A stretch of DNA of 64,000 bases from Saprospiraceae bacterium. Its GTDB lineage: Bacteria > Bacteroidota > Bacteroidia > Chitinophagales > Saprospiraceae. Positions 9,338-55,843 of the stretch are shown here, in pieces; positions within the stretch are counted from its first letter, which is position 1, and each line of letters starts with the position of its first letter. A program made the translations under genes and the position numbers. Below the pieces are notes generated by a model, which was not told the DNA's origin, made no database searches, and was given only the letters and a program-made list of their open reading frames with translations. The DNA is taken from assembly GCA_019694295.1 (NCBI GenBank), contig JAIBCG010000004.1:1-64000 (forward strand), written 5' to 3'.

Positions 9338-10312
9338 CTATTTTCCATAATACCTTATCAAATATTGTCCGGACAAATGCCGTACTTCGCTGATGGTGAC
9401 ATAGCTTTTTCCATTCAGATCCCAGCAGATTCCTTCACCCTGAGGCTCTATTGTGTAAGATGATTCAACTGGTATGGTCTTGATGAGGCTATCTGTCGGT
9501 ATGGAATGAATGTTCTTCCACAAATATACTCTGGTATAATCTTTAATGAGTATGTCGCCTTTGGCTGAAATGTCGGCACCTGTTACTTCGGCTATAGGCA
9601 AATCTGTAATGTGTTGTGCAATAATATTGCCCAAAGGTGTTGCTGGCAATGTAAGCGAATATACTGAACTGTACTTTGACTTGGTGATAATATATGATGC
9701 GCCGGTTGTTTTGTCGGTCATAAATGCTTCTGCATTGTAGCTGACTTTGTCTGGATAACTGAAGGTAAATTTACTTATATCGCTTACAATGAATTCCTTT
9801 GGGAATTTTCCTACCGGAATCTTGGGTTCTTCAAAACGGTAGATATTGTATTTTCTGTGGATGTACTGGTTATCGCCGATATCGCTCAGGTAAATATAAT
9901 TTTTCCCTTTTTCTGGTCCGGGTCCTGTACAGATGTCTTCCCAGTCACGGTTTTTTATTCCTTTCAGTAAAATTTTTACTTTCAATGCACCCAGACTGTC
10001 TATCAGATAAATTTCTTCAGGATTGCCACTGTCATTATGTACGTAATAATGCCCGGGTGAGTATGCACTGGCAGCTATACCGGAGGCTTCTTCAAGTTGA
10101 TCCGACTGAATCCGGAACAATTCGCCTTTTGAGAAATTAGTATCGTGATCTAATTTAATCGGGTTGTAGTGAAATTCTGCAGAATCTCCAATATTAGCCG
10201 TACATCCGTTCATTGCGCGAATACTTATTGCGATAACAAGTATTTTCAATATGTTGAAAATGCGTTGCTTTAAAAGTTTTAATACCAAGTTGTTATGCAT
10301 CTGTTGTTGCAT
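9338..10312 (-). CDS. Beta-propeller-like lipoprotein, unknown function
   Basis: 324 residues. The N-terminus has basic residues, then ILKILVIAISIRAMNGC, suggesting a lipoprotein acylated at Cys37. The rest is repetitive beta structure with motifs of a widespread uncharacterised family: ASGIAASAYSPGHYYVHNDSGNPEEIYLID, NRDWEDICTGPG, YIYLSDIGDNQYIHRKYNIYRFEEP and QGEGICWDLNG. These resemble blades of a six-bladed propeller of the SdiA-regulated/phytase-like type. No catalytic residues are recognisable. It probably sits on the periplasmic or outer-membrane surface. It is preceded by one copy of the dispersed inverted-repeat element. Confidence 0.65.
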   Translation of the reverse strand: MQQQMHNNLVLKLLKQRIFNILKILVIAISIRAMNGCTANIGDSAEFHYNPIKLDHDTNFSKGELFRIQSDQLEEASGIAASAYSPGHYYVHNDSGNPEEIYLIDSLGALKVKILLKGIKNRDWEDICTGPGPEKGKNYIYLSDIGDNQYIHRKYNIYRFEEPKIPVGKFPKEFIVSDISKFTFSYPDKVSYNAEAFMTDKTTGASYIITKSKYSSVYSLTLPATPLGNIIAQHITDLPIAEVTGADISAKGDILIKDYTRVYLWKNIHSIPTDSLIKTIPVESSYTIEPQGEGICWDLNGKSYVTISEVRHLSGQYLIRYYGK

Positions 10313-10371: not shown

Positions 10372-10526
10372 CAAGCCCATTCAACGAATTAGACTCTTTA
10401 CTTCAAATCATTATTCATTCATTTCCATTTCCAAAACTCATTACCCAGCGTTCACTTTAATTTTTTTATGGATTTTCTTGTACGAATTCTTTCTGTTAAA
10501 ATTCATAATGCGTGGTCTGGATTAAA
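10372..10526 (+). repeat. Dispersed TIR-bounded element, copy A
   Basis: About 155 bp similar over its length to copies at ~26583-26739 and 55682-55843. Left inverted end CAAGCCCATTCAACGAATTAG (10372-10392) matches at about 14 of 21 positions the reverse complement of the right end of copy C. Shared internal blocks: TCCATTTCCAAAACTC, GATTTTCTTGTACGAAT, and right end AATGCGTGGTCTGGATTAA. The central hairpin has decayed in this copy. Its right edge overlaps a TAAATTTG promoter box. Confidence 0.55.
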
Positions 10527-10530
10527 TTTG
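10523..10530 (+). promoter_or_regulatory. -7 box at the right end of repeat copy A
   Basis: TAAATTTG fits TAnnTTTG; predicted start near 10537, 14 nt before the ATG at 10551. Its first bases belong to the repeat element. Confidence 0.45.
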
Positions 10531-10550: not shown

Positions 10551-10982
10551 ATGATGAAACTCTGCTTCATTTTTATTGGTTTTATACATTCAGTTACTTC
10601 TATTGGCCAGCCCAGTGCCAATGTGAAAGCATTTGCACCGGAAGAGCTTCGAATGCAGATGATGACAAAATCAGATGTTCTAATGCTTGACAAGTTATTG
10701 TGTGACAATCTTTTATACATACATTCGAATGCAGTTGAAGAAGATAAGGCACTACATCTGGCCAATATTGCATCAGGCAAAATCCGGTACCGGACGATGG
10801 ATATAGAGCAAACTGCCTATTTTACAAAAGGAAAATTTACCTTTACAAATGGCATCCTCAGAGTAAACGGAGTATATGATTCGAAAGATTTTGATATACG
10901 GCTTAAATATACCGCCGTTTACCAAAAACAAAAGTGTAGGTGGAAACTGCTCAGATGGCAAAGCACAAAAATTAACAACTGA
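10551..10982 (+). CDS. Secreted DUF4440/NTF2-like protein
   Basis: 143 residues from the ATG-ATG pair at 10551; the frame opens upstream but those residues are foreign and lie on the promoter. Signal peptide MMKLCFIFIGFIHSVTSIG. The mature part fits the SnoaL/DUF4440 cone fold: LDKLLCDNLLYIHSNAVEEDKA, a GKIRYRTMDIEQTAYF strand pair, then ILRVNGVYD and YTAVYQKQKCRWKLLRWQSTKI, with the RWKLLRWQST C-terminal strand typical of the family. Members bind small ligands or act as cyclases or isomerases; function here is unknown. Expression probably starts from the promoter at the end of the repeat element just upstream. Confidence 0.7.
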   Translation: MMKLCFIFIGFIHSVTSIGQPSANVKAFAPEELRMQMMTKSDVLMLDKLLCDNLLYIHSNAVEEDKALHLANIASGKIRYRTMDIEQTAYFTKGKFTFTNGILRVNGVYDSKDFDIRLKYTAVYQKQKCRWKLLRWQSTKINN

Positions 10983-25346: not shown

Positions 25347-26606
25347 ATGAGTACACCTGTCATCATCATCGTTATGGGCTTTTTCATTTTTTGGGGACAT
25401 TATATGAATGGTGTCTTTGAGAGGAGGAGCATACCCGATGTGTTGGGCCTGATGATACTAGGTTTGTTGATAGGCCCGATTCTTAATCTTGTAGATACCT
25501 CCACATTTGGCCAGTTTGGTTCTATTTTTTCGAATCTGGTACTATTATTCATCCTGTTCGAGAGTGGTACAGACCTGAAGTTTGCGGAGGTAAAGAACTC
25601 GCTGAGGGCGGCGGCTACCATCACTACCATTGGGTTTCTTTTTACATGGATGACCCTCACACCCTTGTGTTATTTTATGCTTGAAATACCTATTTTACCT
25701 TCACTATTTATTGGTGCAGCGCTCGGTGGTACCTCTTCTGCCGTAGTGGTTGGCTTAGTGAAGAAAATCAATGTCAGGCCTAAGACCGCTGCCACACTCA
25801 TCATGGAGTCAGCGGAAACAGATGTTTTTACACTCGCTATTCCGCTGAGTATTCTAGGTTTGATGACCTCCGCCAATGTACAGGTGAATACCGTGTTGTC
25901 AAGCTTTATTTCGAGTATCATACTTTCGCTTATTATTGGTATAGGTGGAGCTTTTCTTTGGACATTTATACTAGGCAGGTACAAAGACCTGAAGAATACC
26001 AAGTTTATGACACCTGCTTTCTTGTTCATATTATATGGCATTACAGAATATTTGCACTTTAGTGGGCCATTGACGGCATTGTCCTTTGGTATTGCATTGG
26101 GCAATCTTGATTATTTTGAACCAAAAATGCTCGAACGAATTATCCCCAATCAAGATATTGCATTGAAGAAGGACGAAAAAGATTTTTTTAGTGAAATGGT
26201 TTTTCTGCTACGCACCTTCTTTTTTGTATATATTGGTCTGAGTATTAAAATCGACGATCTTTTCTGGCTTACCTGGGGAGCTGGTTTTACAGGCATTTTG
26301 TTTCTGGTGCGCATCATAGCGGTCAAACTGGTAATGCATCGAGATACACCGGTACTGGATAAGGGCGTTATCAGTTTTATGATACCAAAAGGTTTGGGTG
26401 CAGCAGTAATAGCTACACTTCCGTTGCAGGAAGGCCACCCTTATGGTTCTGCTATACAGGCATTGTGTTTTTCTATTATATTGTTTAGTACAATTTATAC
26501 CTCGATCCTATTTTTCCTCACCAAGCGAGGAATTACCATTCCTTTATATAAAATAATATTCGGAAAGGACAAGAATAGTACAGTGACAAACGATACAGCA
26601 ATGTAA
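25347..26606 (+). CDS. CPA-family cation/proton antiporter (NhaP/Kef-like)
   Basis: 419 residues with about 12 hydrophobic helices: WGHYMNGVFERRSIPDVLGLMILGLLIGP, NLVLLFILFESGTDL, FIGAALGGTSSAVVVGLV and IMESAETDVFTLAIPL. The last segment is the ion-binding region; the family usually has ESxxND or ND, here ETD, so the conserved Asp is kept and the Asn is replaced by Thr. Probably exchanges Na+ or K+ for H+ at the inner membrane. The last codons may have been supplied by repeat copy B, which begins near 26583. Ion specificity cannot be read. Confidence 0.85.
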   Translation: MSTPVIIIVMGFFIFWGHYMNGVFERRSIPDVLGLMILGLLIGPILNLVDTSTFGQFGSIFSNLVLLFILFESGTDLKFAEVKNSLRAAATITTIGFLFTWMTLTPLCYFMLEIPILPSLFIGAALGGTSSAVVVGLVKKINVRPKTAATLIMESAETDVFTLAIPLSILGLMTSANVQVNTVLSSFISSIILSLIIGIGGAFLWTFILGRYKDLKNTKFMTPAFLFILYGITEYLHFSGPLTALSFGIALGNLDYFEPKMLERIIPNQDIALKKDEKDFFSEMVFLLRTFFFVYIGLSIKIDDLFWLTWGAGFTGILFLVRIIAVKLVMHRDTPVLDKGVISFMIPKGLGAAVIATLPLQEGHPYGSAIQALCFSIILFSTIYTSILFFLTKRGITIPLYKIIFGKDKNSTVTNDTAM

Positions 26607-26739
26607 GCTGCAAATAATTATAGCTTCATGTCCATTTCAAAAGCTCAAAACCATAGTTCACTATGTTATGATCTTTTTTTTATGGATTTTTTGCATGAAT
26701 CAATTTCGCTTAAATTCTTCATCCGTTATCTGGGTTAAC
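26583..26739 (+). repeat. Dispersed TIR-bounded element, copy B
   Basis: Clear similarity to copies A and C from 26610 on: CTGCAAATAATTATAG, TCCATTTCAAAAGCTCAAAA, hairpin CATAG-TTCA-CTATG (26652-26665), TTTTTTGCATGAATCA, TTCGCTTAAATT and right end CGTTATCTGGGTTAA. The left end (GATACAGCAATGTAAG) is diverged and overlaps the 3' end of the antiporter gene. No promoter is visible at its right end; it lies between two 3' ends. Confidence 0.6.
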
Positions 26740-55681: not shown

Positions 55682-55843
55682 TTTAACTCAGATACGCATT
55701 AGGGTTTTTACTGCACATAATGATTACTTAAATCCATTCCAAAAGCTCAAAAAACATAGGTCACTATGCATTCTATTACTTCTTTAAGAATTTTTTGTAC
55801 GAATCATTTTCGTTTAAATTACTAATGCGTTATCTGGGTTAAA
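55682..55843 (+). repeat. Dispersed TIR-bounded element, copy C (best preserved)
   Basis: 162 bp with terminal inverted repeats: left TTTAACTCAGATACGCATTAG (55682-55702) and right end at 55822-55843, matching at 20 of 22 aligned positions in inverse. Internal blocks are shared with copies A and B. A central hairpin CATAG-GTCA-CTATG lies at 55755-55768. No target-site duplication is obvious. Confidence 0.75.

Follow-up and report, generated by a model that had tools for sequence, protein, structure and literature searches.

The genome of this Saprospiraceae bacterium contains a previously unrecognised family of repeats, amounting to approximately 0.3% of its length. The repeats are MITEs of 152 base pairs, and an IS1380-type transposase of the same genome very probably moves them in trans. 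No gene is found within copies of the element. The original prediction described three dispersed copies (A, B, and C) in a window of 64,000 base pairs, which is the whole stretch of DNA analysed and part of contig C97. All three are real. They align from end to end in the window sequence. When up to three mismatches were allowed, a 20-mer from the right end occurred 3 times there, compared to 0 times in 100 shuffled sequences.

The three copies represent a much larger family. The host genome consists of 3.08 Mb, in 139 contigs. Comparing copy C with the whole genome, using BLAST, produced approximately 40 matches with 76-88% identity. The terminal repeat pattern TTAACCCAGATAACGCATTAG was matched at 51 genomic positions (3 mismatches or fewer) and a reversed control at none. 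Hence, terminal inverted repeats are conserved between copies. We also built a sequence profile from 39 oriented copies. Searching the genome with this profile identified at least 71 distinct loci, 57 of which are 135 bp or longer, so the family is not confined to the three copies in the window. The summed length of the loci is at least about 10.2 kb. We examined the surroundings of 30 copies, and in 27 cases the copy lies between ORFs without overlap. All orientations, relative to genes, occur.

The consensus of the aligned copies is 152 bp in length, begins with CCC, ends with GGG, and is flanked by AT-rich DNA. It runs from CCCAGATAACGCATTAG to CTAATGCGTTATCTGGG. Copies matching the consensus have terminal inverted repeats of 17 bp, reading CCCAGATAACGCATTAG, and the element is an imperfect palindrome along its entire length. 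Divergence of individual copies from the consensus ranges between 1 and 23%. In the alignment, no copies have decayed further than A and B (22-23% from consensus); copy C differs by 9%. Internally deleted short forms are found at C102:2287-2387 and C55:35957-36047. Features within the window are listed below, as placed from the sequence and, where indicated, from the profile, the folds, or the 5-bp register of 27 copies.

55687-55838, forward strand: MITE copy C, element proper (CTC...GGG, 152 bp); 9.4% from consensus, 88% identity to best genomic relative, model match of 114.9 bits
55682-55686, no strand: left target-site duplication of copy C, TTTAA; 5-bp register from 27 copies
55839-55843, no strand: right target-site duplication of copy C, TTAAA, the same as the left at 4 of 5 positions; 5-bp register
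55755-55768, forward strand: apex of the copy C palindrome, CATAG GTCA CTATG; sequence and folds
10376-10521, forward strand: MITE copy A, element proper, decayed and with a small internal deletion; model match of 84.9 bits, 22% from consensus
10522-10526, no strand: right flank duplication of copy A, TTAAA, giving the TA of the TAAATTTG box at 10523-10530
26602-26734, forward strand: MITE copy B, left terminal repeat not recognisable; model match at 26602-26737 (model positions 24-160), 23% from consensus
26735-26739, no strand: right flank of copy B, TTAAC, a worn target duplication

Two details of the original prediction need adjustment. For copy C, bounds of 55682-55843 had been given. A copy is present, but the mobile unit extends from 55687 to 55838 and the outer TTAA bases belong to the 5-bp duplication. 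Similarly, ends that are mutual inverted repeats, claimed for all three copies, are a feature of the family but not of copy B, where the left repeat is not recognisable and similarity begins near position 26602. The expected left end of copy B (window positions 26581-26606) is occupied by the last codons, and stop codon, of an ORF for a Na+/H+ antiporter (25347-26606). It is possible that the insertion shaped the C-terminus of the antiporter. A different observation concerns copy A. In the congener G001 (G001:C247), an additional ORF (417 amino acids at most) lies between homologues of window genes 9338-10312 and 10551-10982. At this position the host genome has copy A only. Either a gene was lost near the insertion or one was gained in the congener.

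The element duplicates its target. When CCC and GGG are taken as the ends, the sequences flanking the element to the left and right both resemble TTWAA. In 27 well-preserved copies, the strongest coupling between flank columns was for left -3 and right +3. Next was left -5 and right +1. Both pairs are in a 5-bp register, and this register alone gives clear coupling of left and right flanks. Hence, while the original prediction reported no clear target duplication, the family does have one. The preferred target is TTWAA, over 5 bp. The duplication was previously missed because the copies viewed were worn. Indeed, most duplications in the family are worn, and exact 5-bp duplications were found for 9 of 33 copies compared to 3.5 expected. 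The copy at L007, with TTCAA on either side, is a clear single case. For a few single copies, such as L010 (TTGA), 4 bp is the better fit. We also considered whether piggyBac-like ends might go with a duplication of 4 bp, TTAA. This was rejected on account of the 5-bp column coupling, in conjunction with the ATAAT and TTTAA pairs.

A candidate for the mobilising enzyme is encoded outside the window. At the ends of four contigs (C134, C62, C30, and C111) TTTAA or TTAAA is followed by CCCGGATTATGCATTAG and fused to the reverse-coded C-terminus of a transposase. These contigs stop about 105-235 bp inside the repeat. Two further contigs stop inside the opposite end of the insertion sequence, CCTGAATTATGCAATAG. 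Contig breaks within a repeat are what a multi-copy insertion sequence causes in an assembly. The terminal repeats of this IS are CCTGAATTATGCAATAG on the left and CCCGGATTATGCATTAG on the right, with TTTAA on both sides. A full-length relative of the transposase, 88% identical across the C-terminal 73 amino acids, is found in Bacteroidetes bacterium OLB9 (locus L132). The OLB9 element carries both of the same terminal repeats. Its transposase scores 264 bits against the NCBIfam IS1380 model NF033539, for which the cut-off is 180, and 153 bits against Pfam DDE_Tnp_1_4. Note that IS1380 membership is assigned via this OLB9 relative, with the host's own IS copies known from their ends alone. A Pfam search of the host assembly (G000) detected no complete IS1380 copy; the contig-end fragments are all that is assembled. 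The assembly seems to have collapsed the insertion sequence, so that an intact transposase gene cannot be read. The original prediction, which recognised no matching transposase in the window, has nonetheless been overtaken by the contig ends. Separately, a stray fragment inside a contig, at G000:C53:41023-41091, resembles the start of an IS1380 transposase gene and is probably a dead IS remnant.

The insertion sequence and the MITE also meet directly. A MITE copy on contig C134 has the sequence ...CATTTCCG-TTTAA|CCCGG, with the right end of the IS starting after TTTAA. The reverse complement of contig C56 has the left end of the IS, CAGG|TTTAA-ATTCC..., and then the remainder of a MITE right arm (TTTAA-ATTCCTTATGGG...). 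These are probably two halves of one site, judging from the sequences on either side. The MITE consensus holds a single TTTAA at the nesting site (CATTTTCGTTTAAATTCC). Therefore, the IS duplicated TTTAA upon insertion. The host MITE itself has TTTAA flanks at both sides. A second IS end, on contig C42, is also within a MITE copy.

Taken together, these features are best explained by movement in trans. The architecture proposed originally, that of a MITE-like element, is strongly supported, and a copy number, a 5-bp duplication, and a likely IS1380 partner can now be added. In our model, the resident IS would encode an IS1380-family DDE transposase able to act in trans. The transposase would recognise and bind the 17-bp terminal repeats of the MITE. 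Subsequently, the 152-bp unit would be inserted into an AT-rich 5-bp target, preferably TTWAA, with duplication of the target. Most copies would now be in neutral decay. The source of the enzyme would be the resident IS1380 element or a close relative, and transposition would take place at the DNA level.

Could another transposase be responsible? The MITE repeat and the IS share 14 of 17 terminal bases at the right end and only 11 of 17 at the left, and a complete IS1380 copy is missing from the host assembly. Conversely, the IS right repeat occurs exactly (17/17) in some MITE copies, for instance L027. Furthermore, MITE and IS use the same 5-bp TTWAA-type target. From a comparison that covered a subset of the insertion sequences in the genome, we consider mobilisation by an enzyme other than that of the identified IS1380 element unlikely. 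In a separate comparison, we asked whether the MITE could be a deletion derivative of the IS. By eye, there was no similarity past the 17-bp ends, and this candidate was rejected.

A quite different reading is that the repeats are a structured or regulatory RNA, with a hairpin selected for function, as the original prediction allowed. Such a role would fit the intergenic location of copies and their folding. L002, which lies at C27:8406-8563 and is closest to the consensus (1.3% away), folds end to end with an energy of -50 kcal/mol (z -9.5), and the z score for copy C is -5.6. However, pairing was retained at 80.2%, compared to 80.4% in shuffles, and compensatory changes were not in excess (0.802 versus 0.805 expected). 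The lack of covariation in hairpin pairs argues against a conserved RNA element. Likewise, RNAalifold returned no consensus pairs or structure, tRNA is the only Rfam family in the window, conservation is nearly even from end to end of the element, and copies lie in either orientation to genes. A selected RNA is therefore a most improbable explanation. The copies look like DNA in neutral decay.

Scarcely more probable is that the element is a mobile promoter cassette, retained because genes downstream obtain a -7 box from its right edge. Copies A and C, which the original prediction had described as ending in such a box, are indeed each followed by a TAnnTTTG sequence immediately beyond the right edge, and the target duplication of copy A contributes the TA of its box. 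However, the copy C box is outside the element. Congener G001 conserves it at the aligned position, although no copy of the element can be recognised at that locus, and the box thus most probably belongs to the gene itself. Across the family, a box was found at 5 of 60 element edges and in 15 of 350 nearby windows, a small difference and no clear enrichment. Promoter donation is thus unsupported as a family property, and mobilisation of the MITE by an IS1380-type transposase remains our preferred reading.

We compared the family with genomes of relatives. In a DNA search of 60 relatives, full copies of the family were confined to the host genome. Elsewhere matches were weak or partial, chiefly in G003 and G054. 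The profile matched nothing in congener G001 or in G003, one locus in G054, and five weak but full-length loci in OLB9. The transposase of OLB9 is closely related to that of the host, yet its MITEs match weakly, which counts against our model. The OLB9 elements (L167, L169, L171, L173, and L175) are palindromic, mostly 178 bp in length, and have similar ends with TTTAA-type flanks; those of L171 are TTTAA on both sides. In G003, which belongs to another genus of the family, an element of approximately 190 bp (L062, L163) lies near positions 92751-92950 of contig C79. Its ends read CCCAGATTATGCATTGG and CTAATGCGATATCTGGG, and each is flanked by TTAAA. Thus, related small elements recur in several genera.

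A second small family is present in the host genome (G000). Its members, of about 245 bp, are at C125:1842-2090, C9:5573-5821, C63:3011-3251, and C42:15436-15677. Their ends, CCCAGATAATCCATTAGG...TTTTTGGG, are nearly identical to those of the main family. Three copies (C125, C9, and C63) share 97-99% identity, and this family probably moved more recently than the main one. Two copies have exact duplications, TTAAA/TTAAA in one case and ATAAT/ATAAT, which does not match TTWAA, in the other.

The locus of G001 homologous to copy C provides a partial view of a site without the element. Homology of the flanks continues up to both element edges and then stops, and the sequence between the flanks has no similarity to the element (the local score is below the shuffled mean). 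No recognisable element is present, but the site is not clean, with approximately 79 bp of unrelated sequence between the flanks. To account for it, one has to suppose that one lineage underwent a deletion or that the sequence is a remnant no longer recognisable.

The element is a MITE, and so of a known kind, while the family is new. ERIC-type repeats are also imperfect full-length palindromes, of about 130-160 bp, between genes. Their sequence differs, and ERIC is not generally assigned an autonomous partner, unlike the present family, which has a candidate. The closest documented parallels within the phylum are MITECca01 and the MITEs of Porphyromonas gingivalis. MITECca01, from the Bacteroidota member Cardinium cOegib, is about 240 bp in length, derived from IS982, and present in 169 copies (PMC9769881). 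Like the element described here, it is gene-less, high in copy number, mostly intergenic, and accompanied by a second smaller family, with ends as in a parental IS of the same genome. Unlike our element, its parent is IS982 rather than IS1380 and some parental sequence is retained past the ends (PMC9769881). The P. gingivalis elements BrickBuilt, MITEPgRS, and MITE239 are also intergenic, with terminal repeats like those of an IS in the same genome (PMC4596501). In this case, however, the ends are of the IS5 family, and BrickBuilt has an internal minisatellite and promoter activity in assays (PMC4596501).

Members of the IS1380 family, such as ISEcp1, IS1247, and ISPme1, resemble the system described here in the transposase family of the presumed partner, 5-bp duplication, and short imperfect terminal repeats. 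Such duplications are documented for ISEcp1, reported at the target TATGA (PMC2887853), and for IS1247 (PMC3281130). The differences are that our element is a 152-bp MITE without a transposase gene and that the target is TTWAA, rather than the TATGA of ISEcp1 (PMC2887853). Passages of papers mentioning both IS1380 and MITEs contained no link between the two, subscription papers and ISfinder being outside this search. On the strength of those passages, the IS1380 connection of a MITE may be undescribed so far.

Apart from the IS1380 link, and the comparison of targets, these results are ordinary genome annotation. A broader, and more tentative, proposal is that IS1380-type transposases of Bacteroidota have repeatedly spawned, and still move, palindromic MITEs that share only their ends and have a 5-bp TTWAA target, with related families in several genera. 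We regard this as possible, though somewhat short of an even chance. Published trees use IS1380 as the prokaryote outgroup of piggyBac (PMC10813416). Eukaryotic piggyBac elements also have ends that often start with CCC, and a TTAA target (PMC10813416). The difference is that piggyBac duplicates 4 bp, TTAA, whereas the register here spans 5 bp, with a variable central base. The occurrence of 5-bp TTWAA beside 4-bp TTAA bears on target choice in two related groups of transposases. If the broader proposal is true, MITEs repeatedly derived from IS1380 would be a bacterial parallel to the targeting of TTAA by piggyBac.
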